DNA of 25,668 bases from a virus (IMGVR_UViG_3300035183_001472:1-25668); one strand, 5' to 3'; counted from the stretch's first letter, positions 3,774-25,325 are shown. Translations and numbers: made by a program. The notes: generated from the letters alone by a model not told the origin.

Positions 3774-5862
3774 TTTCGAGCGAGTCCGGCGCGAGAGTGT
3801 GCCCTTACTGCCGTCCATCTTGCCGCGGCTGTTCCCGCGTGGACGGGTCATCGGACGCGAGTTTCGTGTCGGCAATCTGGCTGGGGAGCCTGGCCAATCA
3901 TTGGCGATCAATCTGGAGACCGGTGTCTGGTCGGATTTCGCAACTGGGCAGAAAGGGCCGGATCTGACCAGCCTATTGGCGGCCATGCTGGACGTGTCGC
4001 AAGTCGACGCATGTTTGCTGGCCCAGACGATCATGGACGACCCCTCCTTTGCCGAGACGGTGTGCGCACAGCCGGTGACGGCGCCCTCAAAGCCGATAGA
4101 CGTTCCCATTTATACGCCGGAGACCTTTGCACTCCCTGAATGGGGCAGCCCATTCCTGCTGCATGAGTACCGATGGGGAGATGGATCCCTGGCGTTTGTT
4201 GTGGCGCGTTATGGGAATTCGCGAGCGTCCAAGACCTATCGCCCTTGGGTCTGGGACGGATATGCCTGGAGCAAAACCGGACTGCCCGAACGACGGCCGC
4301 TCTATCGCTTACCACAGTTGCTTGCCGCTCCGCAGACGAGGCCTGTGCTGGTGGTCGAGGGTGAGAAATGCGCCGATCTGGCGGCTGACGTGCTCGGCGA
4401 TCGTCTGGCCGTCGTGACCTGGTCGGGTGGAGCCAGCGCGACAGGGAAGACGGATTGGCAACCATTGGCCGGTCGTTCTGTCATCATCTGGCCGGATGCT
4501 GATGCCCCCGGGCGTCGAGCAGGCTCGGATATTGCCGAGCGGATCCAGGGGATTGTGGCCGACCTGTCGATCATTGAAACCGGGGAACTGCCCCCGAGAG
4601 CTGATATCGTTGATATCTGGAACGATCTTGCCGGCCGTCACGGTACGGCAGAGACCTTGATGTCCTGGATTGAGTCGCATCGACGGGTGGTGCCCACCGT
4701 TCCGATTCCCTCTCGGCCTGCACAGGACTGGACACAGGAGCTGCGCGTCACGCCGTCCGGGAGTCCGAAGCGGATCGTCTACAATGTCGACCTGATCGTG
4801 CAGCATGACGACTATTTCAAGGATTGGTGGATCGAGGCGTGGGATGATCATATCTGGATTGGCAGTCGGCAGGCGACCGATGCTGATCTCTATGCCGCCC
4901 GGGCGTATCTCTCGCAGCGTTGGCACATCGAAGTGCCCGAAGAGTTGATCAGGAGTGCGATTCTCTCACGACGCCCCCATCGGAATACCATTGTGGAGTG
5001 GCTTCGCTCGCTGAAGTGGGATGGGCGATCCCGATGGCTCGATCTGGCCGCACAGGTGTTTCGGGATCCCTCCGATTATCTGGTCTCCGTCCTTCGCATG
5101 TTGTTCTGCGGTCTTGCGGCGCGCGCCCTGACCCCTGGGGTCAAGTTCGACCACTGCATCATTATTCGCGGGCCACAGGGGATTGGGAAAACCCGGTTTT
5201 TTGAGCTCTTAGGTGGTGATCGTTACGTAGCGATCTATGCGTCCATGATGACGGATGCGAAGGACGTCTTGAGCGCCATGTCCTCCGGCTGGGTCGTCAA
5301 CATCGAAGAGCTCTTTGATTCACGGCGGAACATTCGTGAGATTAAGTCGATCATCACATCCACGACGGACACCTGGCGACGACCGTACGATCGGATTGCC
5401 CAGGTTCACCCGAAGCGATGCGTGTTGGTCGGCACGACAGATGCCGAGCTGGGATTCCTTGACGATCCGGCCGGCTATCGGCGATTCTTAATTATCAATT
5501 GCCACTGTCGCCTGCAGTTGGATTGGTTTTGTGCCGCCCGAGAGGCCTTGTTTGCGGAAGCCGTGCAGTGCGTCACGACTGATCCGAACTGGTGGCAACT
5601 GGATTCAGCATCACGACAGCTTGCCGAGCAAATCGCCTCCGATCTGGAACTTGAGGATCCCTGGATGCACACGTTTCGGGAGGCCTTAGTGCCTGGCGTG
5701 GCGTATTCCATGGATCAACTCTGTGCCATGCTCTCGATTGCTGTCTCTCAACAGCATTCCGGAGTGACACGCCGAGTGGCGCGCATTGTGCGCCATCTTG
5801 GCTGGATCAAACGTCGCGGGAAAGATGGCCGGTACTGGTATGAATACTGTGCAGATGGTTAG
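3763..5862 (+). CDS. Primase-helicase: Toprim domain plus VapE/VirE-type ATPase
   Basis: The 699-residue product combines two replication activities. The N-terminal 120 residues (for example TGVWSDFATGQKGPDLTSLL) resemble the region before Toprim in phage and plasmid primases. A Toprim domain follows, with VLVVEGEKCAD at 195-205 (catalytic Glu199) and WPDADAPGR at 243-251 (the DxD metal site, Asp245 and Asp247). The C-terminal half matches the virulence-associated E (VapE) superfamily: KWDGRSRW, Walker A GPQGIGKT at 470-477, Walker B WVVNIEEL at 510-517, then KSIITSTTDTWRRPY and GTTDAELGFLDDPAGYRRFL. Such proteins prime and unwind DNA at phage or island origins. ATG 3763 lies inside the end of the previous gene; an in-frame ATG at 3706 would overlap it much further. 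It is the last gene of the early operon, and its stop interlocks with that of the converging tail-fibre gene. Confidence 0.88.
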   Translation: MSADFERVRRESVPLLPSILPRLFPRGRVIGREFRVGNLAGEPGQSLAINLETGVWSDFATGQKGPDLTSLLAAMLDVSQVDACLLAQTIMDDPSFAETVCAQPVTAPSKPIDVPIYTPETFALPEWGSPFLLHEYRWGDGSLAFVVARYGNSRASKTYRPWVWDGYAWSKTGLPERRPLYRLPQLLAAPQTRPVLVVEGEKCADLAADVLGDRLAVVTWSGGASATGKTDWQPLAGRSVIIWPDADAPGRRAGSDIAERIQGIVADLSIIETGELPPRADIVDIWNDLAGRHGTAETLMSWIESHRRVVPTVPIPSRPAQDWTQELRVTPSGSPKRIVYNVDLIVQHDDYFKDWWIEAWDDHIWIGSRQATDADLYAARAYLSQRWHIEVPEELIRSAILSRRPHRNTIVEWLRSLKWDGRSRWLDLAAQVFRDPSDYLVSVLRMLFCGLAARALTPGVKFDHCIIIRGPQGIGKTRFFELLGGDRYVAIYASMMTDAKDVLSAMSSGWVVNIEELFDSRRNIREIKSIITSTTDTWRRPYDRIAQVHPKRCVLVGTTDAELGFLDDPAGYRRFLIINCHCRLQLDWFCAAREALFAEAVQCVTTDPNWWQLDSASRQLAEQIASDLELEDPWMHTFREALVPGVAYSMDQLCAMLSIAVSQQHSGVTRRVARIVRHLGWIKRRGKDGRYWYEYCADG

Positions 5863-7127
5863 GTCTTGATGATGTATTGCACGACTTGCCATGGTGGCAT
5901 CGTGTTATGCGCCAATCCACCACCTGTCGCTTCCATGCCGATCGTGTAATATTGCGCCCCATCTCCGCTGACCGCGCCTGTCCCTATGTCGTGGGATTTG
6001 ACCGTAAACGTCGTGACCGGCGTTCCGTTACGCAGAAAGCGATGCGTATGGGACGGCATCTCACTGACTTGGAGGAGATGCACCTCAGCCCCGCCCGTTC
6101 CCCCCATCGTGTCGGCATTGCTGCCCCCCACGGATGCGGAGGTCACACGATTGGCGGTGCCGTCAATCCCTAACGGGAATCGCCCTCGCAAGTCCGGCAC
6201 ATTGAACGTACTGGATCCGTCTCCGGGGCCATAGGCGACGCCAATGACGGCAAAGAGTCTGGCGTAGGTGACGCGAGAGACCTCTTGCCCGTCGCAGAGC
6301 AACCATCCAGCCGGCACAGTGTTGTGATGTCCGTACGGGAGGATGCTTCCTGTGGGCACAAAGACTTGCTCCTGGGTCCAGACGGGGGACGCCTCATTGC
6401 CGGTGTTGCGGTATCCGATGGGGTACCCATTCTCGATGCCTAACTTCCAGTCTCCGCTCGTATGGATCATGCGGTAACCTGGTGCGGCTGACTTGACGGT
6501 TGGGAGCCCGATCATGACCGGATGCACTCCGTCACTATATCCCCCAGGCCAGCTCGACCCCGATGCAGAGAGCAATGCGGGCGCGATCATCGAGACCGTG
6601 GTCGGTACCACGCCATCGGCGTCGACCGAGAGCGTGAGCACCGTGTTGATTGCATTGTAGGTGCTGTTGATGATGGTGGCATACACCGACGTGGTGAGTG
6701 CTGTTAATTTGACTCGCCGTCCGACATGGTAGAGTTCGCGAACGTCGCCGGCGATGGCTACTGTCGTGGCATTGACATAAGACACCGTGTGTGGCGTGAG
6801 CCATTCCTGTGTCAGCGTTGACGACACATCCTCCAGTAAAATCTCGTCGATGGTATAGATCGGTGATGTGGGGGGATCTGTATCGTGTGGCGGCGCATAG
6901 ACAAACTTATAGGCTCTGGTCGCGTCAATGTAAATCGGCGTCGGAGGCATCCCGATCGCATTCAGGATGATCGGGTTCGTGTGGAAGGCCGTTCCGTTCG
7001 CCGACGTTGCGACGGAGACTTTGGTTGACGTGCCGGCCTGGTACGTAAAGAGTTTGGCTCCTACATAGGGTTGCCCATTAGGCGTTAACCACTGCGTATT
7101 GCCAACTGGTGATAATCGCCATCCCAT
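5859..7127 (-). CDS. Tail fibre with podovirus-type N-terminus and phage tail collar domain
   Basis: The 422-residue product begins with a pattern common to head-binding N-termini of short-tailed phage fibres: NTQWLTPNGQPYVGAKLFTY, AGTSTKVSVATSANG, NPIILNAIGMP and YKFVYAPP. The C-terminal third is a phage tail collar domain (Pfam PF07484 type): GSILPYGHHNTVPAGWLLCD, FAVIGVAYGPGDGSSTFNVP, DLRGRFPLGID, EMPSHTHRF, ending MPPWQVVQYIIKT. It should attach to the tail machine and contact the host surface. The start at 7127 is chosen because GGAG lies 8 bases upstream and the preceding gene ends at 7129. The frame runs open to 7181 without an obvious ribosome site. It is the last gene of the late operon and overlaps the stop of the converging primase-helicase gene. 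Confidence 0.87.
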   Translation of the reverse strand: MGWRLSPVGNTQWLTPNGQPYVGAKLFTYQAGTSTKVSVATSANGTAFHTNPIILNAIGMPPTPIYIDATRAYKFVYAPPHDTDPPTSPIYTIDEILLEDVSSTLTQEWLTPHTVSYVNATTVAIAGDVRELYHVGRRVKLTALTTSVYATIINSTYNAINTVLTLSVDADGVVPTTVSMIAPALLSASGSSWPGGYSDGVHPVMIGLPTVKSAAPGYRMIHTSGDWKLGIENGYPIGYRNTGNEASPVWTQEQVFVPTGSILPYGHHNTVPAGWLLCDGQEVSRVTYARLFAVIGVAYGPGDGSSTFNVPDLRGRFPLGIDGTANRVTSASVGGSNADTMGGTGGAEVHLLQVSEMPSHTHRFLRNGTPVTTFTVKSHDIGTGAVSGDGAQYYTIGMEATGGGLAHNTMPPWQVVQYIIKT

Positions 7128-10829: not shown

Positions 10830-11174
10830 TTATGACCTCCCCCAGGTGCGTAACGCCAGGTCGACCTGATGAATGCAGAAGAGCCGAGTGTGTGGCTCAA
10901 GAGTTAAAAATTTGTGCTCGACGCCTTTCGGAATATCAATGACCGACCCGGCTTGAAAGACGCCCTGATCATGTCCGTCTCGCCAGAGACGGACAGTCCC
11001 CGATCCGACAACGGTCACATGAGCATAGGGATGCACATGTTGCGGAATCAATGAATACATTGCCGGACAATAGATCTCGCGCACATAAATCCCCGCATTG
11101 TCCACAATGGTGATGCGCTCGACCGGACGTTCTTCGGGGGTAAATGGACGTTCAACCGTCGGTTCAGGTATCAT
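10830..11174 (-). CDS. Single-domain cupin protein in the virion gene cluster
   Basis: The 114-residue product is a compact cupin beta-barrel. Cupin motif 1 reads LIPQHVHPYAHVTVVGSGTV, with the His-x-His pair and a third His. Motif 2 reads AGSVIDIPKGVEHKF, with PxG and the metal-binding His. A metal site is therefore plausible, but whether it is enzymatic, sugar-binding or structural is not visible. The start at 11174 is chosen because AAGGAGG lies 5 bases before it; an ATG at 11177 is only 2 bases from that site, and frames up to 11264 overlap the previous gene. It sits between the gp10-like and gp7-like genes, where P22 has gp26 and gp14, so a role in virion assembly or host-surface contact is possible. 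Confidence 0.8.
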   Translation of the reverse strand: MIPEPTVERPFTPEERPVERITIVDNAGIYVREIYCPAMYSLIPQHVHPYAHVTVVGSGTVRLWRDGHDQGVFQAGSVIDIPKGVEHKFLTLEPHTRLFCIHQVDLALRTWGRS

Positions 11175-11184
11175 CATCCCCTCC

Positions 11185-11436
11185 TTATGGGACAGGCGCC
11201 CCTGTGGCATCAACCCACTGCGACGCGGTTTTCGCCCAAATCGGTTTCCCCAAGGTGGTATCAAAATACTGATACCCGATAAACGGCGGAGGAGCCGGAC
11301 GCTGTGACGACGGTCCTGATCCGGACATCACCGACACCAGGTGCGATAAGTCAGCAAACCATTGGAGCCAAGCTGCCGGATATCCCTGCTCAGCCTGCAG
11401 TGACTGTCGCAATGGTGGAGGGGCTAATACTCGCAT
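11185..11436 (-). CDS. Small virion-associated protein, 83 aa
   Basis: The 83-residue product ends with FIGYQYFDTTLGKPIWAKT, then SQWVDATGAPVP. This FDTTLGKPIW...WVDATG pattern recurs at the ends of many short phage tail or fibre-associated proteins. The N-terminal half (residues 9-50) looks helical, with QAEQGYPAAWLQWFADLSHL. The start at 11436 shares one base with the gp10-like stop (TAATG), indicating translational coupling, so a longer frame up to 11535 is not needed. It occupies the position of P22 gp26, the tail needle, but is far shorter and lacks a long coiled coil, so I do not call it a needle. Confidence 0.65.
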   Translation of the reverse strand: MRVLAPPPLRQSLQAEQGYPAAWLQWFADLSHLVSVMSGSGPSSQRPAPPPFIGYQYFDTTLGKPIWAKTASQWVDATGAPVP

Positions 11437-13519: not shown

Positions 13520-13710
13520 TCATCACTCCAGGATGAGGCGCGAGCGACCCGGCGCATGAATTCTTTTGCCGGGATCCACCCGCGCTCTCGATAGCGATGC
13601 TCTTCCTCGGCGGAATACACGGCAATCGCTTGCCACGACTCTGGCTCATCAGGGCGACCGCGCATGAGTTCCGCACGAGGACGAGCAGAGTTGTACTGAT
13701 GCTTTATCAT
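13516..13710 (-). CDS. Hypothetical 64-aa protein between coat and connector genes
   Basis: This short basic protein contains AELMRGRPDEPESWQAIAVY and RERGWIPAKEFMRRVARASS. I do not recognise it. Support comes from tight packing: its start overlaps the coat stop by 4 bases (ATGA) and its stop overlaps the gp4-like start by 4 bases, with no gap for an alternative gene. The ribosome site is weak, so translation probably depends on re-initiation after the coat gene. The AEEEHRYRERGW stretch suggests a helical, possibly nucleic-acid- or partner-binding protein, but no function is claimed. Confidence 0.65.
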   Translation of the reverse strand: MIKHQYNSARPRAELMRGRPDEPESWQAIAVYSAEEEHRYRERGWIPAKEFMRRVARASSWSDE

Positions 13711-14897
13711 CCAGCAATTCGAACAGCTAACTGAGGCCGAATGGCTTTCATTCCGTAAAAGACGTCTACCCTCGTCGGGATGGTGTCATCCATGACGGAA
13801 TAATCGCGGATGATCCGCATCGAGATGCCATCCATGACTTCGCGCGCCCCCCAGTCAATGCCTTTCGGCATATAGAGGTCAGCAAAGGCAATGGCAAATG
13901 CATCCCGATGGTACGCCACTCCCACCTCATAGCTCGCGTTCGCCGCACCAACGAATGTCAGCGCCGCCGCGGCCGCAGGGCTCCCCGTCACGTTTTTCTG
14001 CGGACCGGTCGTCACAATCGCCGGCGCAATCGGCAATGTAACCGACGTCCCCGTCGCTGTGACATCCTGCGTAATCACGAATTGCTGGAGGATCCCCGTG
14101 TCTACCTTTGTTTCCGGATGCACACGATTGACCCCTGCGCAGGTAAACACCTGCCCCTTTATAAAGGTGCTTCCATTGACAGTTCCATTAATAGTCAACG
14201 TCGCACCAGTTTGACCGGCCGTGCTGACCGTCAATCCGGCCACAGTGTTTCCGTTGCGGATTCGTGGAACCATGGTGTTCTGGTACCAATCGAATCCGGC
14301 TGATCGTCCAATCAGCCCTTCCCGGTACTGTTTGCTGATTTCTTGGCTGTCCTGGAAGAGCCCTTTGAGGGCGTCAACCATGACGGCCATTGTCATCGGA
14401 GACACTTGTACACAACGAGGTGCTTGTGGAGCCAGCGCATTAGCCAGAATGGCCCCAGCGTCCGTAAACGTGAGCAACGTATTCGGGCGCGTCCCTGGCG
14501 TCCCGTTCTGCTGAAACACCTCCGTCACGAGTTGAAAGACCTCCGACTCGATGTTGGCCGCCAGAACCGACATGGCGGGTTCGATCACCCGCTCCGAAAA
14601 ATCATCGAGCTTCAACGTCAACTCTGCCGTGTTGAGCGACATCGCGACGTGTTTCTGTGTGCCGACCACCAGGTCGACCGATTGCTCGATGGTGTCTTGC
14701 ACGGTAATCGTCTGCCCCGTGCCAACTGTATATTGGTTCGGCAAGCGCAGTTTTACCGTGTCGCCAATTTTGGCCCCAGTTTTTCCAAATTGGTCGTCGT
14801 ATTGGCGATTAATGGTACCAGTAAAGGTCAGTTTCTGATGCAGGATCATCAACGCCTTCCGCGTGACCTGCACCGGAGTTAACAACGTATTTGCCAT
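13707..14897 (-). CDS. Major capsid protein, P22 coat (gp5) family
   Basis: The 396-residue product shows the P22-type coat protein layout: MANTLLTPVQVTRKALMILH at the N-terminus, TGTINRQYDDQFGKTGAKIG, DTVKLRLPNQYTVGTGQTI, QKHVAMSLNTAELTLKLDDF, RVIEPAMSVLAANIESEVFQ, RCVQVSPMTMAVMVDALKGL and RSAGFDWYQNTMVPRIRNG. The C-terminal part (YEVGVAYHRDAFAIAFADLY, GISMRIIRDYSVMDDTIPTR) also agrees. It is close in length to P22 gp5 (430). It should form the icosahedral shell with scaffold help. GAGGAAGG lies 4 bases before the ATG. It is the one late gene preceded by a real gap (98 bases), which carries a hairpin and may give it separate control of mRNA level. Confidence 0.92.
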   Translation of the reverse strand: MANTLLTPVQVTRKALMILHQKLTFTGTINRQYDDQFGKTGAKIGDTVKLRLPNQYTVGTGQTITVQDTIEQSVDLVVGTQKHVAMSLNTAELTLKLDDFSERVIEPAMSVLAANIESEVFQLVTEVFQQNGTPGTRPNTLLTFTDAGAILANALAPQAPRCVQVSPMTMAVMVDALKGLFQDSQEISKQYREGLIGRSAGFDWYQNTMVPRIRNGNTVAGLTVSTAGQTGATLTINGTVNGSTFIKGQVFTCAGVNRVHPETKVDTGILQQFVITQDVTATGTSVTLPIAPAIVTTGPQKNVTGSPAAAAALTFVGAANASYEVGVAYHRDAFAIAFADLYMPKGIDWGAREVMDGISMRIIRDYSVMDDTIPTRVDVFYGMKAIRPQLAVRIAG

Positions 14898-14995: not shown

Positions 14996-15790
14996 CTAAC
15001 GTCCATAAAATCGCGCATTCGGATACATGCTCCGAATACGCGCCGATTCTTTCCGCAACCAGGTCTCGACATCATCCTCGTCGGACGGTTGCGAATCCCT
15101 ACTAACGCCACCACGAGGAATCTGTACCTGTAGATTCTTCGTGGGCGACGACTTTTCAAGTTCTAACTTTGACGCCAGCTTGCCGATCTCGACCGACGCC
15201 CGCGCCGGCGGAAGCGCGCTGATCCGCGCCGCTTCGTCGCGATGCGTTGACAGATAGAGCATCACCAGGGGACCGTTGGCGTCCAGTTCAAATACTGCGT
15301 CCGCCACGGACTCCGAAATCGGCAACGTGGGATCAGTGATCATGTCCCAGAATCCCGCTCCATGCGCCTGCGCCACTTTTTCAGCCTCCTGTTGAAAGCG
15401 CGTCAGGCGTTCCTGGCGATACGCCGCACGTTGCTGTTGCAGCGCGGTGGCCGTTCGTTCCTCAATGGCCTTGGCCACCTGTTGATCGACCAGAGACTTA
15501 ATGTACTCGTCGTAAGAGTTCGCTTCTGTCGGCGACTTTGACGGGGTCGACAATTCCGCCAACTTGGCGCGCAGAATGGCATTTTCCTTTTCGATGGCGT
15601 TTCGCTGCGCGACCAGTTCGGAAATGCGTTCCTGAAATCGCCCTTTTGGCTGTTTCAGGTCCTTCTTTGCTGCCTGCAATGATGGCGGCAGGTCGTCCGA
15701 TTCCTTCTCGGCCTGCTGATCGACCGATGCGTCCTTGCGCACCTCATCTGTCTGCGACTCGATCGGTACATCATGATTCTGGTCGCCCAT
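14996..15790 (-). CDS. Scaffold protein, P22 gp8-like role
   Basis: The 264-residue product is acidic at its N-terminus (VPIESQTDEVRKDA, QQAEKESDDLPP). It then has a long coiled coil (GRFQERISELVAQRNAIEKE, NAILRAKLAEL), a second helical stretch with VDQQVAKAIEERTATALQQQ, and a basic C-terminus (RKESARIRSMYPNARFYGR). A charged helical protein directly upstream of the coat gene is the expected profile and position of a scaffolding protein, which in P22 is about 300 residues and binds coat through a basic C-terminal helix-loop-helix. AAAGGGGGAGGG precedes the ATG. It overlaps the lipoprotein gene by 20 bases. It is separated from the portal gene by about 6 kb, unlike in P22. Confidence 0.8.
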   Translation of the reverse strand: MGDQNHDVPIESQTDEVRKDASVDQQAEKESDDLPPSLQAAKKDLKQPKGRFQERISELVAQRNAIEKENAILRAKLAELSTPSKSPTEANSYDEYIKSLVDQQVAKAIEERTATALQQQRAAYRQERLTRFQQEAEKVAQAHGAGFWDMITDPTLPISESVADAVFELDANGPLVMLYLSTHRDEAARISALPPARASVEIGKLASKLELEKSSPTKNLQVQIPRGGVSRDSQPSDEDDVETWLRKESARIRSMYPNARFYGR

Positions 15791-16052
15791 GCCCTCCCCC
15801 TTTCTTTACCTGCCCTTCTAACGACCGTCCTAATAGACATAAATTCTCAGCCGTCATGCCAGACAGCTCCAATGCCATTTGCGCGCTGGCTTTTTCCTTC
15901 GACTCCGGCATGATGGCAATGATATTGGCAACCCGTTGCCGCGCCGAGATGTCGTCGGCCCACCAACAGACCGTACCATCCAGCATGGTGCCACGAAATA
16001 ACGGTCCACATCCGGATAGCAGCAACAAGAGCGGAATCAATAGTGCCATCAT
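15771..16052 (-). CDS. Small lipoprotein in the lysis region
   Basis: The 93-residue product has a textbook type II signal: MMALLIPLLLLLSGCGPLFR, with lipobox LSGC and the lipidated Cys at 15. Gly follows at position +2, so outer-membrane sorting is expected. The mature part is about 78 residues, helical in its centre (RQRVANIIAIMPESKEKASA, QMALELSGMTAENLCLLGRS) and basic at the end. It sits with holin-like, nuclease and peptidase genes, so an outer-membrane lysis role is possible. It is not proline-rich and is not nested in an Rz-like gene, so it is not a standard Rz1. Superinfection exclusion is an alternative. AAGGAGG precedes the start; ATGA overlap with the nuclease gene. Confidence 0.75.
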   Translation of the reverse strand: MMALLIPLLLLLSGCGPLFRGTMLDGTVCWWADDISARQRVANIIAIMPESKEKASAQMALELSGMTAENLCLLGRSLEGQVKKGGGHGRPES

Positions 16053-16396
16053 TTGGCATGTCCTCCTTTGCGCAGAACGTCTGCAAGCTTGACGCCGTCG
16101 CGCTCAATAACCCCTACATAACGACCGTATTTGTCACGCCGGCAGAGCGTCATGGTCATCGGCCCTTCAGCAACCCAGGCTTCAGTAGCCGCCCTGGCTT
16201 CTGCCCATCCCGGCTGTCGGCGCTCCGGCGTGTCGACATCAAGAACTCGCACATACTCCAGGCCGCCCACGCCAACATGATACAGCGCCAAAGTGTCTCC
16301 GTCGATCACACGCGCCACCTGTCCAGGAGGAACGGTCAACATGAGACACAGAACGACACGCCTGCCTACACCTGTCGATTTGTGAAGTAGGCCCAT
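16049..16396 (-). CDS. SNase-family (thermonuclease-like) nuclease, probably exported
   Basis: The product, 115 residues from this start, keeps the staphylococcal-nuclease active site: VIDGDTLAL at 30-38, YVRVLDVDTPERR at 48-60 and RRDKYGRYVGV at 86-96. By alignment by eye, Asp34, Arg50, Asp55, Thr56, Glu58 and Arg92 match the metal-binding and catalytic residues of the family, so it should be active and calcium-dependent. The N-terminus (KSTGVGRRVVLCLMLTVPPG) resembles a weak signal peptide. The start is uncertain: ATG 16396 is chosen for a GGTGG upstream; 16411 and 16342 are alternatives. It lies between the holin candidates and the lipoprotein and overlaps both. Export would place it in the periplasm or the lysate. 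Confidence 0.82.
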   Translation of the reverse strand: MGLLHKSTGVGRRVVLCLMLTVPPGQVARVIDGDTLALYHVGVGGLEYVRVLDVDTPERRQPGWAEARAATEAWVAEGPMTMTLCRRDKYGRYVGVIERDGVKLADVLRKGGHAK

Positions 16397-16533
16397 CCAA
16401 CCACCGCGCATGCCGCAACAACATGAATCAGGTTTTCAACTGATGGCGATGACAGAAACTGCGTGATTGCACTCTGCAACTGATCCAGTCCGTAGAGCCC
16501 GCCTAAGATGGTTGTCAGCTTGTCTGGATTCAT
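16366..16533 (-). CDS. Small membrane protein, holin candidate
   Basis: The 55-residue product has one membrane segment near its C-terminus (NLIHVVAACAVVGWAYFTNR, about 34-53) after a short amphipathic start (NPDKLTTILGGLYGLDQLQS). Size, topology and position beside an M15 endolysin and a second membrane protein make it a holin or antiholin candidate. ATG 16533 overlaps the upstream stop by 4 bases and lies just after an 8-base G run that may serve as a ribosome site. Because the upstream gene is in the +1 frame relative to this one, a -1 slip on the G run would fuse the two products. No family was recognised with certainty. Confidence 0.62.
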   Translation of the reverse strand: MNPDKLTTILGGLYGLDQLQSAITQFLSSPSVENLIHVVAACAVVGWAYFTNRQV

Positions 16534-16754: not shown

Positions 16755-17822
16755 TTACCGTACCGCTCCCGTGATGGTTGCTCCGCGCACAGCTCCACGC
16801 GTATTCGGCTCAATCGGGATCGGCGGATTTAGATCCTGCTCCTCTGTGGCAAAAATCACGTCGTCCAAGTAAAACGTGGCTTCATATTCCGGGACGCGAA
16901 CTGCCATAATATCAAGAAAACACGGATCAGTATGGTTTGGACACTCCGGCGTGGTCCACTGAGAAAAATTCGGCGTGTTGAACGTTGTGAAGACTTTCAG
17001 CGTTCGCAAACCGCTGCGCGAGGCTTCGGGGACTTGCCAGCTCAGACCCGGCGTCCGTGCCCCCTGCCAATCCGACACCTTCGTCCACGGGTTGGCCGAT
17101 GATGTCCGCATCCACTGCTCGTACCGTCCGATCGGGCCGTCCATATCAAAATGGATACGAACTTGCATCCATGCACCTGGCGTGACAGGCATATCGACAA
17201 GGTTTTCGTATAACACCGTTGCGCCAATGCGATTGGCATCAATAGCCTGTTCGACATTCGATGCCCGAAAGTAAAACGCTCCATCGGTGGGAGCCGGTAT
17301 CCCGTTGCGATCGGAACTAATCCCTACCAGCCACACGGTGAGCGGCGGATCGTCGCCGCTGTATACAGCGCGACATGGGTACACGTTCGTTCGACACGGG
17401 TAAACAAATTTGCTTGTATGCACTTTCTTTCCTGGCAAAATCTTGATCCAAAATTGTATCCAGACTTCGCCAGGAATGAGGATGTTCGGCGTGGCGTCTA
17501 TTGCGAGCCAGGTATCCGTCTGACACCATCCGATACTGACACAACTGGTTGGATAAGTAGGCTGATCACGAAACGCCACCTCGAATACTAAGACTTTCGA
17601 GCCTCGCTCCATATCGTCAACTGTATAGAGGTACCCCGCCCCGCTTACAAAGTCCGAGTTCAATGATTTGATATCCGTCCATCCGGCACCTCTAAAAACG
17701 GATGTCACATTGCTGTTCCGATTCGCCACGTACTCGAATGAATCGCTGAACAACACGACAGCTTCACTTGGCAAAACGCTCATGAGCCAGCTTAGACCGA
17801 TGATGATTCCGTATCGGAGCAT
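16755..17822 (-). CDS. Exported protein, possible carbohydrate-binding or lyase-like beta-sandwich
   Basis: The 355-residue product starts with a clear signal peptide (MLRYGIIIGLSWLMSVLPSE, likely cut after SEA at 21). The mature part begins VVLFSDSFEY, and has WIQFWIKILPGKKVH, AFYFRASNVEQ, TPGAWMQVRIHFDMDGPIGR, YEQWMRT and EATFYLDDVIFATEEQDL. This series resembles concanavalin-like jelly-roll proteins, including heparin-lyase-like and LamG-like families, in which a partner sugar is bound on the beta-sheet. No catalytic set was confirmed. There are eight or more Cys, several closely spaced (CRTNVYPCR, CPNHTDPC), fitting disulfides after export. Start 17822 follows GGGAGG by 4 bases. It overlaps the peptidase gene by 31 bases. 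Likely roles are host-surface glycan binding or degradation. Confidence 0.65.
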   Translation of the reverse strand: MLRYGIIIGLSWLMSVLPSEAVVLFSDSFEYVANRNSNVTSVFRGAGWTDIKSLNSDFVSGAGYLYTVDDMERGSKVLVFEVAFRDQPTYPTSCVSIGWCQTDTWLAIDATPNILIPGEVWIQFWIKILPGKKVHTSKFVYPCRTNVYPCRAVYSGDDPPLTVWLVGISSDRNGIPAPTDGAFYFRASNVEQAIDANRIGATVLYENLVDMPVTPGAWMQVRIHFDMDGPIGRYEQWMRTSSANPWTKVSDWQGARTPGLSWQVPEASRSGLRTLKVFTTFNTPNFSQWTTPECPNHTDPCFLDIMAVRVPEYEATFYLDDVIFATEEQDLNPPIPIEPNTRGAVRGATITGAVR

Positions 17823-18265
17823 GATTCCTCCCGACATTGGATGTGGAGTATCCGTAATCCGCCTTCGCGCGTGATAACCTTCTCAACACATGGATGCTCT
17901 CTGATCGCTATCGCAATAGCCTCTCCCTCTTCTCCCGGCCAGGCACAATCAAACGCATGTCCCGTTAAGTGTCGCGAGAGGCTATACTGCTCGGATTCGT
18001 CAGCCGTCCGAATGACAGTCTCAATTGCCGCATCGAGGCCGTCATCTGTCGCGCCGGCCACAGCATCGACAATGCGCCGCACGAGCGGTGTCGCGCGATA
18101 GGTCTGTTGAATCCAGTCTCGACCATACCGGCGCGTATTCCGTGTCATCACCCGGATCTGCTCATCAAGTGAACGCCTGCCCGACGTGATCCGCAACTGC
18201 GGCCAGCGCGCTAACACCCATTCAGCCACCCGCTGCGTTGTCGGCGTTAATCCCCAGGTTACCAT
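17792..18265 (-). CDS. M15-family (VanY-like) peptidase, endolysin
   Basis: The 157-residue product has the metal-binding set of M15 LD- or DD-peptidases: SGRRSLDEQIRVMTRN near residues 28-43, SRHLTGHAFDCAWP with His99 and Asp106 (the SxHxxGxAxD motif), and RILHIQC with His141. Such enzymes cut peptidoglycan peptides and are frequent single-domain endolysins in phages of Gram-negative bacteria. There is no signal peptide, so it needs the neighbouring holin candidates to cross the membrane, which are three to four genes downstream. The start overlaps the upstream stop by 7 bases with a poor ribosome site, so translation is probably coupled. The C-terminal tail (REESCSDTESSSV) overlaps the next gene and is probably dispensable. 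Confidence 0.85.
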   Translation of the reverse strand: MVTWGLTPTTQRVAEWVLARWPQLRITSGRRSLDEQIRVMTRNTRRYGRDWIQQTYRATPLVRRIVDAVAGATDDGLDAAIETVIRTADESEQYSLSRHLTGHAFDCAWPGEEGEAIAIAIREHPCVEKVITREGGLRILHIQCREESCSDTESSSV

Positions 18266-19005
18266 CGTCGTCGTAAGCCTGCCCCCATGCTGCCCCCGCC
18301 ACCCCCACCGCTACAAGATACTCCGCCGTTAGCCAGCACCAACACCATGGCATGCTTCTCAGGCGTACTCACGTTAAGAGTGGCGTCAAATGGTCCAGCC
18401 GAACCGTTTAACGACAGACACGTCCGCGCAAAATAACCGTGCCTCCGACTATTGGTATACCCCTCGAAATCTTCCACCCAATCCGTCGGCGGGGTAATGG
18501 CATTGTTGTTTGACCCGGCAATGACGGTACTTCCCACAAATAACAGCCATCGATCTCCGGTTCCGGTAATGCTCCCACCGCGGATAATCTGATCGTTTGT
18601 GCCGTACGGGATGTTGGCGTACGATTCGATCGGTGTGCCAACAATCCCTCCGTAGTAGGCCGCCATCGAGCACGCGCTGCGGTTGTTTGCGACGGGCCAA
18701 GTCCACGTTGCCGCCGATTCGTTTTCGACTGCCATTTTCCAGTAGAGGAATACGCCGCGATCATTCGCGGCTCCGAATGCCCTGGATGCTATCAGGGTCC
18801 ATCCGGGTGGAGGTGTGACGGCTGTGGTGTTGTGCGTATGCACTGCGGCGATTAAGAGGTCTCCCGCGGTCGTACCTGTCGGCGGAGTGACAGTACAAAA
18901 TGCATCTGTCCCCGGAACGTCGAGATGAACGGCCCCGCGGAAGCTCGTAGCATACGCAGGGCTAGCCAGACAGACACAGACTATAATGGCACAGAGAATG
19001 CGCAT
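18259..19005 (-). CDS. Exported beta-rich protein with polyglycine C-terminus
   Basis: The 248-residue product starts with an excellent signal peptide (MRILCAIIVCVCLASPAYA, cut before TSFRG). The mature part is beta-rich (FRGAVHLDVPG, TTAGDLLIAAVHTHNTTAVT, PPPGWTLIASRAFG, VFLYWKMAVENESAATWTWP). This pattern, including DLLIAAV and PPGWTLI, is one I have seen in large phage and secreted adhesion-like proteins, but I cannot name a family. It ends VSCSGGGGGGSMGAGLRRRW: a Cys, six Gly and an Arg cluster, reminiscent of C-terminal sorting tails but without the membrane helix. The start at 19005 is set by GGAGG five bases upstream and by a TAATG overlap with the tailspike-like gene. A longer frame to 19275 runs inside that gene and is rejected. 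Confidence 0.7.
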   Translation of the reverse strand: MRILCAIIVCVCLASPAYATSFRGAVHLDVPGTDAFCTVTPPTGTTAGDLLIAAVHTHNTTAVTPPPGWTLIASRAFGAANDRGVFLYWKMAVENESAATWTWPVANNRSACSMAAYYGGIVGTPIESYANIPYGTNDQIIRGGSITGTGDRWLLFVGSTVIAGSNNNAITPPTDWVEDFEGYTNSRRHGYFARTCLSLNGSAGPFDATLNVSTPEKHAMVLVLANGGVSCSGGGGGGSMGAGLRRRW

Positions 19006-21725
19006 TATAGCCTCCGCGTGACAACAACCGTCATGCCAATCAACTGCGCCGTCCCGGTCGCAGTGTCCGACGCATCCGTGCCATGTCGCCCGATCTGTCC
19101 GTATACAACGCGCCCTTCTGCGCATGCGGTACAGGTCGGTTGCGATAACATGACCTCTACCTCTCGATTCGCGGTATTGTAAACCGGACCGGTAATACAA
19201 TTGCTCGTCCCGCGGGCCGGTAACGCCGGATCGCTGGCCTCCCCGTACCCTACGCTGGCCAGTTGCGCACACCATCGCACGAATGTCGTATCGTCGCTCG
19301 ATGTGATACGATACCGAAAGATCAACGTCAAGCCTGTATAGCCTGACGGCAACCGATACCGCCAGTTAAAGACTTGGTCGCTATCCGGATCGAAATTGAG
19401 ATGGCCGCGTCCGCCGGAAAGATTGCACGCAACCGTCGGCGCATTCGCGGTCGGCAGGTCAACAATGGCTTGCGCGACGTTGTTTTGGCAAGCCGCCACC
19501 TCTAGCCATTGTTCGAACGGCAGGTCCGTGGCGTTACTGTGATACCTGACGATCGACCCGCCTTGTTCATGACTTTTGAGCGCAGAATCGGCCTGGTCGA
19601 AATACAGTCGATGTTGCCCCGCGCCCGCCGGCGGACCAGGAGCTGCCCCTTCGCGCAACGTCACTATCCCGATGCCGGTATCGCCGGAGACAAATCCATC
19701 AGGACAATTCATCTGCCCGGTCGTCGAGACGGTACAGAGCGACCCCTGAATCGTCGACCCGCCGGTTCCGTTCGCCAGAATGACCGCGCGATCCGTCGAG
19801 CCGGTCGAGCCTCCAATGCCACCCCCACCGCCGCCCCCCACACGTGATCGCGTCACCTCACGCCAGACGGTTCCGTCAAGCGTGAGCACCAAAATATCAT
19901 TGGCCTGCGCAGTATAGCTGGCCGCACCAGCTAGCTGAATGGTCGATCCGTGCTGGATCGTTGTGTTGGCATCGTCGAACAGCAGGTACAGAAACTGCCC
20001 CGGGCGTCCGTTTGTCAAGGCAGTAATCGTGCGCGGCAAGGCACTGGAAACGCGCCATTGCGTGCCATATCGTACTGAGGGGGTCGCCGTTCCGTCCGCC
20101 AACACAGCAACGCCGGTATACCCCACGTTCTGGGCAGTGGTGAACCGATTCGTGAAGGGATCGACATAAATGCGTGCAGTGGCCGTATCTAGTGTCGCGT
20201 GCAGTCGGATGTCGAACCCAGTAGACGATGTGATCGTATTCCCGGCGATCATCACGTCGGTAATCGTTTCCGATGCGCCGGCATCGCCGGTGATTTGAAT
20301 TCCGTGCCCGAAGCTAGTATTCCATGTGTTATGGATATTATTGTCCAGGATCTGCACATTGCGCACCGTGCCTGTTGGTCCTGAAGCCACTTCGATGCCC
20401 ATATACTGGGCATGCGTAATCGAATTCCCCTGAATGACAATTCGCTCGCACGTAACAGCGTCACTAGGTATGATGCGGATGCCATACCGAAACGTACTGT
20501 TGACGTCAGGCGCCTGTCCCGCGAGCACATTGTGTGCCAGTACGAGATCGCTTGATGAGCCTAACACGAAAATGCCGGCATCTGACGATGTGTTCGCCAC
20601 GTCTGCAATAACATTGCCAGTCACAGTCGCATGCGTTGTGTTAAGTAGGTAAATTCCCGCTCCATTCGCTTGGCGAATGATGTTGTTGGCAATCGTCAAT
20701 CGCTGATTACGGCCGTTATTGGTGAGGCTCGATGCATACAGTTGAATACCATGGTATGCCGCACTCAGAACGGTATTCCCCACAATCTTGAGTTCTTGGT
20801 TATGGACCTGCTCTGTCCCGACATAGCTGGCGATCGAGAATCCTGATCCGTTCCCCACGGTCTCCACGATATTCCCCTCCAACAACCCGCCCGTGCCGTT
20901 GTAGGTGATCGCGGATGCTCGACAGCCGGTCACAATGTTGTCGCGAACGATGTCATCTTGCTCGATGCGCGCAACCGCCACATTGTCCCCCAGCCACAGA
21001 CACCGCGCGTTGTCGCCGGTACCGGTATTTGAGTCCCGAAACCGATTCTGCTGCACGATGTTGCGGATGCCGCCCCTCAGCACTATTTGTGCGCTGACAT
21101 TACCAGCATTCCCGGAACCGCCTCCTATCAACATGTTGCGCTCGATCACACACTCTGTGCATTGTGCGAACAGGAAGCCTGCTTGCACCGGTGTTGCCGC
21201 ATCCTGGAACCGTAATGCCCGCACCGTAATCCGTACACCTGCGTCAATGACCCACAAATATCTGGTCGGAGCAAGGCTGTGCGTTTGTCCTCCAGTCTCA
21301 AGGGAGGCCATCGCCACAAATCCGCCGCCGTTGCGCCCCTCCACAGTCACATCGGTTTTGCCGGTCAATCGAATACCCGGCGCCCCGATCGCACACAATC
21401 CGTTAGCACCGTCCACAACGACCGTCCCGCCGTTCGAGACCGCCGTTAATGCCGCCTGGATAGACGCGGCGTCATTTGTGACCCCGTCACAGACAGCGCC
21501 GAAATCGCGAACATCAAGATAGTAGGCCGGAGAAGCCGTTACGACTCCGGATGAATTGGTAATCCGAATGTCCCGCCCGGTCGAGAAATTCGGGTTCGCC
21601 TCCGGCACACCGTTGATGCTGACGTTAGCACCACCACCTCCTCCTCCTCCGCCGCTTATGCGAGCCGCATATACAGGGTGGACGAGTAGGAATAAGACTA
21701 AGCAGTACACACTAAGATGTATCAT
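19005..21725 (-). CDS. Pectate-lyase-fold (beta-helix) tailspike-like protein with signal peptide
   Basis: The 906-residue product begins with a type I signal peptide (MIHLSVYCLVLFLLVHPVYA, cut before ARISG) and then eight consecutive Gly. Residues 70-94 (LDVRDFGAVCDGVTNDAASI) are the entry motif of the Pectate_lyase_3 superfamily typical of tailspikes. A long right-handed beta-helix follows, to about residue 560, with many Asn-rich turns (IVGNTVLSAAYHGIQLY, IANNIIRQANGAGIYL, VTGNVIADVANTSSDAGIFV). A second polyglycine stretch (about 630) leads to a Cys-containing C-terminal domain of about 250 residues (CQNNVAQAIVDLPTANAPTV, CNLSGGRGHLNFDPDSDQVF). Such proteins bind and cut host polysaccharide. 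A Sec signal on one is unusual because tailspikes assemble in the cytoplasm. GGAGG precedes the ATG; ATGA overlap with the 106-aa gene. Confidence 0.8.
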   Translation of the reverse strand: MIHLSVYCLVLFLLVHPVYAARISGGGGGGGGANVSINGVPEANPNFSTGRDIRITNSSGVVTASPAYYLDVRDFGAVCDGVTNDAASIQAALTAVSNGGTVVVDGANGLCAIGAPGIRLTGKTDVTVEGRNGGGFVAMASLETGGQTHSLAPTRYLWVIDAGVRITVRALRFQDAATPVQAGFLFAQCTECVIERNMLIGGGSGNAGNVSAQIVLRGGIRNIVQQNRFRDSNTGTGDNARCLWLGDNVAVARIEQDDIVRDNIVTGCRASAITYNGTGGLLEGNIVETVGNGSGFSIASYVGTEQVHNQELKIVGNTVLSAAYHGIQLYASSLTNNGRNQRLTIANNIIRQANGAGIYLLNTTHATVTGNVIADVANTSSDAGIFVLGSSSDLVLAHNVLAGQAPDVNSTFRYGIRIIPSDAVTCERIVIQGNSITHAQYMGIEVASGPTGTVRNVQILDNNIHNTWNTSFGHGIQITGDAGASETITDVMIAGNTITSSTGFDIRLHATLDTATARIYVDPFTNRFTTAQNVGYTGVAVLADGTATPSVRYGTQWRVSSALPRTITALTNGRPGQFLYLLFDDANTTIQHGSTIQLAGAASYTAQANDILVLTLDGTVWREVTRSRVGGGGGGGIGGSTGSTDRAVILANGTGGSTIQGSLCTVSTTGQMNCPDGFVSGDTGIGIVTLREGAAPGPPAGAGQHRLYFDQADSALKSHEQGGSIVRYHSNATDLPFEQWLEVAACQNNVAQAIVDLPTANAPTVACNLSGGRGHLNFDPDSDQVFNWRYRLPSGYTGLTLIFRYRITSSDDTTFVRWCAQLASVGYGEASDPALPARGTSNCITGPVYNTANREVEVMLSQPTCTACAEGRVVYGQIGRHGTDASDTATGTAQLIGMTVVVTRRL

Positions 21726-22042
21726 CGTAACTCCTCCGTGCAGGAGACTGTGGCCGTCGTCGATGTCGCTACCATATACACAGGTCCACGTGACAGGATT
21801 TCAATGGCGCTGTTCACCTGAATTAACTGTCCAGACGAAGAGTCTGTTAACAGTCGATCATTCCCCCATCGGACAGACCCCCCCGTGACAGTACAAGACA
21901 ATGCGTACCGTGCGTCATTCGCCGGCGCCACCAACGTTGGCGTCGTGGTAACATTCACCGCCGCCAGGGGTACTGCAACGGTTTGCGCCAGTACAGATAT
22001 TGCCAACAAACTCCACATTGCGACCCCGAAGTATATCTTCAT
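21722..22042 (-). CDS. Small exported protein, 106 aa
   Basis: The product has a signal peptide (MKIYFGVAMWSLLAISVLAQ, cut after VLA at 19). Its mature part of about 87 residues is beta-rich: TTTPTLVAPANDARYALSC, TVTGGSVRWGNDRLLT, QLIQVNSAIEILSRGPVYMV, ATSTTATVSCTEE. It contains two Cys that could form one disulfide. The layout resembles small beta-sandwich proteins encoded near phage structural genes that are often decoration or fibre-associated, but those usually lack signals. It lies directly after the portal gene (ATGA overlap at 22039-22042) and before the tailspike-like gene (ATGA at 21722-21725), so it is the first member of the exported block. Function is unknown. Confidence 0.68.
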   Translation of the reverse strand: MKIYFGVAMWSLLAISVLAQTVAVPLAAVNVTTTPTLVAPANDARYALSCTVTGGSVRWGNDRLLTDSSSGQLIQVNSAIEILSRGPVYMVATSTTATVSCTEELR

Positions 22043-23973
22043 ACTCCCCCCTGTTTGATAGCCGCCACCGCCAGTTTGGTTGCGGCTTGTTGCTCACTTT
22101 TTTCCTGCTCCATTTGCACCTTCAGAACAGCCAGCCGCATCTCATGTTCGTGCTGCACAGCTTGCTCGGCCAAGCGACGCTCCGTTTCGATCCGCTGCTT
22201 GGCAAGCTCTTGCTCCGCCTTTAGCTGCACTTCGATCAGACGCGCCTGCGCCTTTTCGCGCTCCGCCAACAACAATTTTTGTAGATTGTCCCGCTCCACT
22301 GTCAGTTGCGCCAACTGATCGTTGAGTTCTTGAATGCCTGATCCGTCCTCAAGGCCTTTCGGCAACATGGCGCGCAACCGCTTGGCCAGTACGTCGGCTC
22401 CCGGTACGTCCATTGTGCCAACCACCAAATCCCCCGCGATCTTCATAATGTCCGGATAGGCATTGACGATCGTCTGCATGGCACGATTGGCCTCCTGCCG
22501 CTTTGTCACCGATGTTGGCCCCGTGCTCATCATCACGTCATACCGCCCAATCGCCGGATTGTACGCCGGCATCAAGACGCGCCGATAGGCGTCAACACGC
22601 TCTGCCACCGCCTGCGCCGCCGTCGGATCAATCCACACCATGCGCCCAATCCCATCATCCCCAACAATGCGTATGACTTGCGGTGTCGTATAGACATGCG
22701 GAATCATGGACAAAATCGCCCGCCCGGTCTGCTCAATCGCCTGAAACCAGTGCTCGATGTAATGATAGGTGTTTACCGCCCCAGGCTCTTGCTGCGCGAC
22801 AATCCCCGCCCCTGATTGCACCGGCGCCCCGCCAGTCCCTAAGACGGATGGCTGTGCCAACCCCATAATCATTTGCGTGTCGGCAATTAAATTCTGCATC
22901 ACTGCCTGCCAGCCTTCGGGAATCCCCGGCAACGGCGCTCGTTGCGGAGGCGGCACTTGCTGCCCGCTGATCGTTTTCGGCGTATACCGCAACACGGCAC
23001 GCGGCACACGATGCGCATCGGCCCACTCGCGTAAGTACGACTCGACCTGCCCCTCCGCTGCCACAAATGGCGCTAACGGCGCAAGAGCCACAGCCTCAAT
23101 AAACGCCGACGCCGCATAATTATAGGCCCGCTGCGCATCCATGGCTGACGTGCTGATCATCCCGCGATACCGAATCTGCCCCCGCTCTTCGTACTCCTCC
23201 CCGACAACACGGATAATCGGCATCACCTCGCCGATCTGGCGCCCCGACTGAATGACGGTGTCCCCCGTGCAAATCGCCCAGCGGACAGTGCCGTCCTCCG
23301 TCCGCCAGTAATACTCCGCGACAGACATGCTGTCCTGATAGACAGGATGCTCCCATGGCGTCACGCTCTCCACGTTCGGATACTGTTCGCGAAACGCCGC
23401 CCGAGACATCTGTGTCACCACAAACATGTATGCCGCGTCACGCCCATCCGGATACTCTGCATTGGGATCCATCACGACCATGCGCGGATCTCGAATCCGC
23501 CGCACCGCACACTCCCATAACCCCGTCGTCCTAATCGGTTGTACGACGACCCGCCAATACCCGCACCCCAACTGACAGGCATGCCGCAACCCTGTCTCGT
23601 ACGCCACCCTCGCGCTCGAGGTTTGCCCGATCTGCCGAATCAACCCGGCCACCACATCCGCCACAACCTCATCCGCCTCTCCATCCATCGCCAAGACCCG
23701 AATGTCCCGCATGTGCAGCAAGCCACTGTTGACGACATGCCGCACATACTGATTCAAATGGTCCAAGACCAATGCCGGACGGTCCCCACGCTCGCGCACG
23801 ACCGCTTCAGGCCATTGCCGCCCAGCTAAAAACTCCTGCACCCGCGTCCACTCCTCCCAGTCACGCCGGTGTCCCTCCACCGCCTCCCGATATCGGGCAC
23901 GTGCCGTCTCGATTATTTCATCCACCCGTAGAGCGTCGCCTTTTTCGGGCGGTCCAAACAAATCGCGTCCCAT
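22039..23973 (-). CDS. Portal protein, P22 gp1 family
   Basis: The 644-residue product matches P22-type portals: DWEEWTRVQEFLAGRQWPEA at the N-terminus, RGDRPALVLDHLNQYVRHVV, LRHACQLGCGYWRVVVQP, RIRDPRMVVMDPNAEYPDGR, YRGMISTSAMDAQRAYNYAA, DTQMIMGLAQPSVLGTGG and VNTYHYIEHWFQAIEQTGRA. The last 110 residues are a long charged helix (ELNDQLAQLTVERDNLQKLL, EQELAKQRIETERRLAEQAV) that matches the helical barrel of P22 portals. P22 gp1 is 725 residues. The dodecameric ring at one capsid vertex takes the packaging motor and later the gp4/gp10 tail. Start 23973 is chosen for GGGAGGGG directly before it; the terminase gene overlaps by 61 bases, and the open frame to 24075 is not needed. Confidence 0.9.
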   Translation of the reverse strand: MGRDLFGPPEKGDALRVDEIIETARARYREAVEGHRRDWEEWTRVQEFLAGRQWPEAVVRERGDRPALVLDHLNQYVRHVVNSGLLHMRDIRVLAMDGEADEVVADVVAGLIRQIGQTSSARVAYETGLRHACQLGCGYWRVVVQPIRTTGLWECAVRRIRDPRMVVMDPNAEYPDGRDAAYMFVVTQMSRAAFREQYPNVESVTPWEHPVYQDSMSVAEYYWRTEDGTVRWAICTGDTVIQSGRQIGEVMPIIRVVGEEYEERGQIRYRGMISTSAMDAQRAYNYAASAFIEAVALAPLAPFVAAEGQVESYLREWADAHRVPRAVLRYTPKTISGQQVPPPQRAPLPGIPEGWQAVMQNLIADTQMIMGLAQPSVLGTGGAPVQSGAGIVAQQEPGAVNTYHYIEHWFQAIEQTGRAILSMIPHVYTTPQVIRIVGDDGIGRMVWIDPTAAQAVAERVDAYRRVLMPAYNPAIGRYDVMMSTGPTSVTKRQEANRAMQTIVNAYPDIMKIAGDLVVGTMDVPGADVLAKRLRAMLPKGLEDGSGIQELNDQLAQLTVERDNLQKLLLAEREKAQARLIEVQLKAEQELAKQRIETERRLAEQAVQHEHEMRLAVLKVQMEQEKSEQQAATKLAVAAIKQGGV

Positions 23974-25325
23974 GCCCCTCCCTCTACGATCGTACGCTGC
24001 CGACTTTTCGCCGGCGTTAAGGCCGGCGCAAAAAACGCCAGCACCGCAAATGCCTTTGCCGCATGACTGCTCCAATCATGCACCGCCTTAACCGACCACA
24101 CGTCATGCGTCTCTCGATATGATGCATGATAAGCTTTCAGACACGTCAAGCCACGCTCGCACGCGTCCGCCGCAAACCGACACCGTGGCAACATCTGCCG
24201 CACACTCGCAACCTGAATGTGCTCCTCCGTTGGTCGACGCTGTGTGTAGCAAGTAAACCCATGGCGCGTTAACATCGACTCCACTGTCTCGCCAGACGTC
24301 AGTTCATGCTGCACGGCATCATGTGGCAATAACACTCCTCCATAATTCCAGGGATGCGCCCGCATCGCCCGCACAATCGACGGCACATCCATTTTCCGAA
24401 ATTCATCGTAGGCAATTAACCGGATATTCTCTTCCCCGATCTGGGCATACCAGATTGCTGTTGCATCGGAGTATCCTAAGTCGCATGCCGCATAGACCGG
24501 CTCTTCCGGCCATGCTTCGACTTCGCCCACTCTCCCCTTCTTCTCCAACTCCTGGAGCAAATCTCCATAAAAACTCCCCGGTGTGACATCTTCAAAGCTA
24601 CAGAGATACTCCTGTCGATACAGCGCCGCGCCCACTTCCGCCCCATAGAGGTCAATGTATTCCTGCTGCACTGTCCGTAGCTGCTCGGGGGTGAAGACGC
24701 TCGTCTCTTCTGCCGTGGCATAGTGCACCGCCCATCCCGGCTTTCCCCGCTGCGCCTCCATCTGCCGATAGACATGATTGTGCCGCCCCCTCGGCGTCGT
24801 GAAAAACCGAAAGAATCCCCCATTTTCCTCCACGATCGGCCGCAACATCGCGACAGCCTGCGGATCAGCCAATGCCCACTCCGAAAAATACACTCCGCGC
24901 GGAGAGCCGCCGACAATGGCATCGTAATTGTCAGACCCTAAAAACTGTACACGCGACCTCTTCCCGCCCATCGCATGTACTTCAATCGCCATTTCCTGCT
25001 CTTTGAATGTCCCAATCCGAAATCCTTCCGGGAAATGCTCGTCTATTCGACGACGACCAGTCCTGGGATTGATCGACGACCAAATCGCCCGCCGCGCATG
25101 CTCCTGCTCAGGCAGGCAATAGTAGTAATTGCCCGGCACCTGCGCCGCCCGAACCGCACAATCCGCTAACCCGACCTCATCTTTCCCCCATCGCCGATGC
25201 GCCACTAGCAGCACATTCGGCACCTCCCGCTCAAGATCCCTCCATACCGCCAGTTGGTGCGGGGAGGGCTTCCACCCCCCCGCTGGAAGGACAATCCGTC
25301 GTGCCCGTGCTTTTGTTGATGACAA
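23913..25325 (-). CDS. terL: Terminase large subunit
   Basis: The 470-residue product carries both motor and nuclease domains. The ATPase has NVLLVAHRRWGKDEVG (Walker A at about 43-49, in the RRWGKD variant), VYFSEWALAD (Walker B at 145-150, catalytic Glu149) and FFRFFTTPRGRHNHVY (coupling motif at 171-186). The RNase H-like nuclease has ACDLGYSDATAIW (Asp282), VLLPHDA (Asp336) and HDWSSHAAKAFAVLAFF (Asp417). It should drive genome packaging through the adjacent portal and cut the concatemer. The likely start is TTG at 25325: GGAGGGGG lies about 7 bases upstream, and no ATG or GTG is seen in frame over the next 30 or so codons. The first 95 bases lie inside the small-subunit gene. Confidence 0.92.
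   Translation of the reverse strand: MSSTKARARRIVLPAGGWKPSPHQLAVWRDLEREVPNVLLVAHRRWGKDEVGLADCAVRAAQVPGNYYYCLPEQEHARRAIWSSINPRTGRRRIDEHFPEGFRIGTFKEQEMAIEVHAMGGKRSRVQFLGSDNYDAIVGGSPRGVYFSEWALADPQAVAMLRPIVEENGGFFRFFTTPRGRHNHVYRQMEAQRGKPGWAVHYATAEETSVFTPEQLRTVQQEYIDLYGAEVGAALYRQEYLCSFEDVTPGSFYGDLLQELEKKGRVGEVEAWPEEPVYAACDLGYSDATAIWYAQIGEENIRLIAYDEFRKMDVPSIVRAMRAHPWNYGGVLLPHDAVQHELTSGETVESMLTRHGFTCYTQRRPTEEHIQVASVRQMLPRCRFAADACERGLTCLKAYHASYRETHDVWSVKAVHDWSSHAAKAFAVLAFFAPALTPAKSRQRTIVEGGAWDAICLDRPKKATLYGWMK

Follow-up and report, generated by a model that had tools for sequence, protein, structure and literature searches.

A beta-helix tailspike-like protein with a predicted Sec signal peptide encoded in the virion operon of a phage whose portal is P22-like

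The window analysed here (the whole stretch of DNA, 25,668 bases) is an IMG/VR virus record from a phage with a P22-like portal. It contains the 906-aa open reading frame that the original prediction had placed at 19005-21725 without naming the strand; the gene lies on the minus strand and is read from 21725 to 19005. Several neighbouring genes encode proteins with predicted signal peptides (SPs) and, because the P22-like portal gene adjoins, this cluster was placed in the virion operon. The features used below are:

22039-24075, minus strand: P22-like portal (PF16510, E 3.8e-105)
21722-22042, minus strand: 106-aa protein with an SP by score (MKIYFGVAMWSLLAISVLAQ); an ATGA overlap couples its translation to that of the spike
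19005-21725, minus strand: SP-bearing beta-helix tailspike-like protein, 906 aa (Pfam and PHROG matches)
21666-21725, minus strand: predicted Sec SP of the spike, MIHLSVYCLVLFLLVHPVYA, score 7.1, predicted cleavage before ARISG
21630-21653, minus strand: polyglycine linker of the spike (residues 25-32), where homology with a second phage (contig L003, complete as L008) begins
18259-19005, minus strand: 248-aa protein with an SP by score (MRILCAIIVCVCLASPAYA), its start overlapping the spike stop (TAATG)
17792-18265, minus strand: 157-aa endolysin-like protein of the same cluster, no SP (weak PHROG endolysin match, E 0.007)
16755-17822, minus strand: 355-aa protein with a predicted SP (MLRYGIIIGLSWLMSVLPSEA) and six cysteines
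13707-14897, minus strand: putative major capsid protein (position, N-terminal resemblance to P22-like coat proteins, gene order relative to DSL-LC05)
5859-7127, minus strand: collar fibre, a conventional virion adhesin without SP (Pfam Collar, E 9.7e-23; SP score 2.05)

The N-terminus of the spike reads MIHLSVYCLVLFLLVHPVYA followed by ARISGGGGGGGGANVSINGVPEANPNF, and the polyglycine stretch expected after the cleavage site is present, as is the predicted beta-helix entry motif LDVRDFGAVCDGVTND. Matches to a right-handed beta-helix domain (Pfam Beta_helix PF13229, E 2.7e-13, above cut-off), to NosD (Pfam, E 3.3e-9, passing its cut-off) and to Phage_depo_C at residues 555-622 (PF25692, E 1.5e-6, likewise passing) are joined by matches to PHROG tail-spike families (phrog_2234, E 2.3e-14). 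A second polyglycine near residue 630 precedes a fibre-like C-terminal part. An N-terminal head-binding domain of the P22 type gave no Pfam match, the N-terminus consisting of SP, polyglycine and an NPNF-type segment, and the spike showed no recognisable virion-attachment domain of a known kind. Cysteines had been predicted for the C-terminal domain; eight do lie in residues 664-868, but they are not confined to this part, as another seven fall in residues 79-426, and the mature chain holds 15 in all. Broader searches with the spike returned one weak match in the PDB (mannuronan C5 epimerase), a single weak match among named phages (in a Klebsiella phage) and no relative, hence no host pointer, in a GTDB scan. 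An AlphaFold2 monomer model of the mature chain made with no alignment was uninformative (pLDDT 38).

The start codon of the spike gene lies in the ATGA overlap with the upstream 106-aa gene, is preceded by the Shine-Dalgarno sequence GGAGGAG, and has no alternative ATG, GTG or TTG between the leader and the beta-helix. Therefore, we consider it secure: a start downstream of the signal segment, which by the original prediction would refute it, has no candidate codon ahead of the beta-helix.

SPs were called with a home-made score built on h-region hydrophobicity, the residues at -3/-1 and n-region charge, for which six E. coli secreted proteins gave 7.5-9.1 and P22 gp9, T7 gp17 and LacZ gave values below 0; the threshold of 6.7 was our own choice. 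Across the whole window (both strands), five of 371 ATG-opened 45-codon frames score at least 6.7, and these are the starts of only four genes, encoding the 106-aa protein, the spike, the 248-aa protein and the 355-aa protein, all within the portal-to-capsid part of the late operon. At a control rate of 1.5%, at least four matches in 15 late genes has P = 6e-5. In six relatives picked by portal similarity, about 115 late-region genes yielded four flagged ones, with no tailspike among them (Fisher p = 0.006 against 4 of 15 in the window). The spike had been predicted to carry a well-formed signal peptide with a VYA cleavage site. The SP is indeed there, with a hydrophobic core free of charged residues and V-Y-A at the cleavage site (small residues at -3 and -1), but its n-region, MIHLS, has no Lys or Arg and a net charge of 0, which makes it somewhat atypical; the allele in L008 has MRHR. 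A positively charged n-region is typical of Sec signal-peptidase I substrates, although not obligatory. Because 143 of 5000 shuffles of the same 34 residues score equally high, composition alone explains part of the signal. A second contig, L002, has a leader identical to that of the window spike.

Among the SP-bearing neighbours, the 355-aa protein matched no family, and the mature 106-aa protein gave a low-confidence beta-rich model (AlphaFold2 without alignment, pLDDT 48). The 248-aa gene accompanies the spike in both L008 and L004; its product ends in GGGGGGSMGAGLRRRW (18259-18309, minus strand), a glycine run followed by arginines. Elsewhere in the window, a protein of the SNase/phage endonuclease family (16049-16411, minus strand; phrog_452, E 1.9e-15) has a hydrophobic N-terminal stretch with a borderline SP score of 5.3 and is possibly one more exported protein. 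A 93-aa protein (15771-16052, minus strand) with the lipobox-like leader MMALLIPLLLLLSGC is a candidate lipoprotein, for example an outer spanin. A cupin-like protein (10830-11264, minus strand) lies among the ejection-protein genes, and, by eye, DSL-LC05 and P26218 have similar small genes in the corresponding position. The open reading frame at 1-513 (plus strand) looks chimeric by eye, passing from a glycosyltransferase-like N-terminus to a C5 DNA-methyltransferase-like C-terminus at RYGVSQLRPRVVFVG, and could be an assembly chimera or a genuine fusion.

Comparison with the second phage bears on whether the leader of the spike matters. The IMG/VR contig L003/L008 shares 3.55 kb with the window at 98.8% DNA identity (window 18107-21656; L008 1-3655), a module comprising the spike from the polyglycine onward and the 248-aa gene. 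Upstream of the polyglycine there is no homology between the two, just matches of 11-14 bases, and L008 is a different podovirus whose backbone is unrelated to that of the window phage and which also has fibres without SP. Its spike begins with MRHRTIGIGIGLLVLACWQGSAHA followed by QFFGGGSGG, joined at the polyglycine, and this unrelated leader scores 9.1. The near-identical module is read as a recent transfer between podoviruses with its breakpoint in the polyglycine codons, and recombination at these glycine codons is what swapped one predicted SP for an unrelated one; either allele may be the older. An SP on both alleles is unexpected if the segment is neutral, and its retention through the exchange suggests that it matters. 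All 15 mature cysteines are conserved between the two spikes. Among the 20 amino-acid differences, 16 fall in the beta-helix (p = 0.04), as expected of a glycan-recognition surface. The codon differences (20 nonsynonymous, 4 synonymous; dN/dS about 1.8; p = 0.36 against neutrality) lend no support to purifying selection on the mature chain in this two-allele comparison.

SPs recur on fibres of other environmental viruses, where gene calls were made mechanically. A scan for polyglycine followed by [IV]NGxxxxNPNF found them on fibre-like proteins in three further unrelated virus groups and on none in two others. A second scan, independent and without selection for SPs, used the fibre motif NAxxRFDGTxGK and returned 68 complete environmental fibre-like N-termini. 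Five of them (7%) have an SP, and the scores of the set are bimodal (at least 6.2 or at most 4.5). The cysteine content of SP fibres is 1.30%, against 0.26% in fibres without SP (Mann-Whitney p = 3.5e-7; p = 8e-4 within the unselected set alone). Since cysteines of the mature chain lie outside the SP score, this enrichment is independent support for an oxidising destination. Several of the fibres of L028, L047, L032 and L009 share a short two-cysteine segment (like PASCQTNGNNIFFRTDTGQLKVCTAANTW) after the SP, which could be a common attachment domain. The Rhodoferax phage P26218 encodes a 169-aa protein with a strong SP (score 9.9) two genes past its fibre (L146 20318-20827, plus strand), and a GTDB pattern scan found two Bacteroidetes MAG contigs (L019, L020) encoding SP proteins of more than 2000 aa with the same Gly-NPNF motif.

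A link to virions comes from Tunturi_1 and Tunturi_2, cultured and purified podoviruses of Tunturiibacter psychrotolerans X5P2, an acidobacterium (phylum Acidobacteriota; PMC11924767). Their tail-adhesin module contains five SP proteins: gp12, gp13 (tail fibre), gp14 (tail spike/pectin lyase), gp16 and gp17 (virion structural). The large SP proteins have 1.5-2.8% cysteine, and for gp14 and gp17 the matches to beta-helix families are weak and fall short of the curated cut-offs. These are all the recognisable adhesins by annotation, which leaves gp32 (1307 aa) uncharacterised. In Tunturi_2 no SP was found on the portal, the capsid, gp9-11, gp31, gp32 or gp37, and two further flagged genes resemble lipoproteins. 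Within the Tunturi set, the host does not account for the SPs: the podovirus Tunturi_3 grows on the same strain, and all its fibres lack one. In the siphovirus Tunturi_4, gp113 and gp114 bear SPs and the fibre gp111 does not. The source paper makes no mention of signal peptides (PMC11924767), and no published description of SPs on tail fibres was found in the open-access literature searched.

Two environmental viruses extend the pattern. In G006, a 37-kb podovirus, the putative capsid gene is followed after 12 bp by the gene for a 165-aa protein with an SP score of 10.2, which narrowly passes the Pfam cut-off for Phage_cement_2 (24.3 against 24.0 bits); a fibre and a LamG protein of the same operon likewise bear SPs. 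Next to the SP fibre in this virion operon, an O-antigen-ligase/polymerase-like membrane protein was noted by eye (L153 4701-6101, minus strand), which may point to surface modification. In the 52-kb virus G004, six consecutive SP genes follow the tail-tip genes, four or five called by score and the rest by alternative starts.

What the sequences show is a signal peptide with a fixed start, a position in the virion operon, a predicted beta-helix, cysteine enrichment and the exchange of one SP for another. Our reading, to which we give a probability of about 0.5, is that Sec exports the spike, that its disulfides form in the periplasm and that it is added to tail-less particles when the cell lyses. 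It would be made as a Sec preprotein whose unfolded chain SecYEG passes through the inner membrane, and signal peptidase I would cleave it after VYA. It would then trimerise and form disulfides in the periplasm, alongside the 106-, 248- and 355-aa SP products of the same late operon, while heads filled with DNA and fitted with portal, adaptor, nozzle and ejection proteins would be assembled in the cytoplasm as usual. Once lysis opens the inner membrane, spikes would encounter these heads and complete assembly by docking to them. Such late docking would need no new machinery, because P22-like tailspikes are a peripheral part of the tail that is added last and P22 tailspikes can join heads in vitro. 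Export of the spike itself is very probable, given the SP-for-SP swap, the cysteine enrichment and the cluster of SP neighbours; whether it joins the virion is about an even bet. The uncharged n-region, the failure to recognise a virion-attachment domain and the presence of a collar fibre without SP count against this reading. The collar fibre, confirmed where it had been predicted, had been offered as already filling the adhesion role, but this is a weak argument against a virion spike, because phages often carry more than one adhesin.

Three outcomes had been proposed for the protein: a secreted depolymerase, an enzyme that blocks superinfection by modifying the receptor, or a spike that virions acquire outside the cytoplasm. 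Export, common to all, is well supported, but sequence alone does not separate them. That the spike never enters the virion and acts as a secreted depolymerase or receptor-modifying enzyme is a less likely reading, though a serious one. Such an enzyme would strip or alter surface glycans, and so block superinfection, keep progeny from sticking to debris or clear matrix, with adsorption left to the collar fibre alone. It fits the export evidence and the lack of a recognised attachment domain, and it has a bacterial parallel in WceF, a glycosidase resembling tailspikes that carries a Tat signal for export (PMC7949094). Because the window phage, like L008, also has a fibre without SP, it explains the window spike equally well. 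However, it leaves unexplained the SPs on a capsid-cement protein, on non-enzymatic fibres and on every recognisable fibre or spike of Tunturi_1 and Tunturi_2, and the spike gene sits in the virion operon, in the slot that holds an SP-free spike in DSL-LC05. As a general mechanism, we favour addition to virions outside the cytoplasm, because the recognisable fibres and spikes of the cultured phages all bear SPs, as does a capsid-cement protein.

Two further explanations are improbable. The hydrophobic segment could be an uncleaved anchor that tethers the spike to the inner membrane, for assembly there or release on depolarisation, as secreted and SAR endolysins provide phage precedent (PMC6116005) and the n-region is weak; however, the examples seen have canonical small residues at -3/-1 (VYA, AYA, SHA, AFA) and short h-regions, and the leader is exchangeable between the window and L008. 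Equally, the SP could be incidental, either because annotation or assembly created it or because the segment fails to engage Sec, with the spike folding and assembling in the cytoplasm as in P22. Hydrophobic N-termini do give false positives (at least one ejection-type gene among the relatives scores above 6), and the shuffles point the same way. Against this, the leader recurs unchanged in L002, another phage kept an SP of its own, four SP genes share one operon, cysteine content correlates with SPs, and SPs recur in the finished genomes of the Tunturi isolates. Export with late docking offers one joint explanation for the SP, the cysteines and the SP gene cluster as well as for the cement protein and the adhesin modules of the Tunturi phages.

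More broadly, it is possible, if still tentative, that a class of tailed phages with members among both podoviruses and siphoviruses uses host Sec to export several proteins of the virion exterior (spikes, fibres, even capsid cement). Their particles would then be finished outside the cytoplasm at lysis, and disulfides would stabilise the adhesins. Textbook assembly of tailed phages is cytoplasmic. If the adhesins of some phages go through Sec, assembly gains an extracytoplasmic step. Adhesins can then have disulfides, which would lend them stability in soil and water. The signal peptidase and Dsb enzymes of the host would count among phage host factors, and spikes not bound to particles could already work on the surface ahead of lysis. 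The idea is directly testable on one host strain, whose cultured phages have (Tunturi_1 and Tunturi_2) or lack (Tunturi_3) SP fibres.

The close catalogued relative by portal, DSL-LC05, has the order portal, small genes, tailspike, scaffold, capsid. Its tailspike (WJZ48166.1) thus occupies the same slot as the window spike, and the beta-helix entries of the two align (32% over 134 aa, E 1e-4), but it has no SP and starts with MSLTKVSYSMIDGATINVRDFGAVGDG, 16 residues before the beta-helix entry. P22-like tailspikes (P22 gp9, Sf6, HK620) are likewise beta-helix depolymerase-type adhesins of phages with a P22-like portal; unlike them, the window spike has 15 cysteines and a cleavable-type Sec leader plus polyglycine in place of the N-terminal head-binding domain. 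WceF of Pantoea stewartii is an exported, glycan-active beta-helix trimer with a tailspike fold (PMC7949094), as the window spike may be, but it is a bacterial gene product with a Tat signal, a retained P22-like head domain and no virion role. Secreted and SAR endolysins (fOg44 Lys44 and others) are phage proteins that use host Sec (PMC6116005); they are lysis enzymes, however, and not adhesins. The SP proteins gp12, gp13, gp14, gp16 and gp17 of Tunturi_1 and Tunturi_2 have a cultured Acidobacteriota host and no detected sequence homology to the window spike, but like it they are cysteine-rich, SP-bearing tail fibre or spike proteins of podoviruses.
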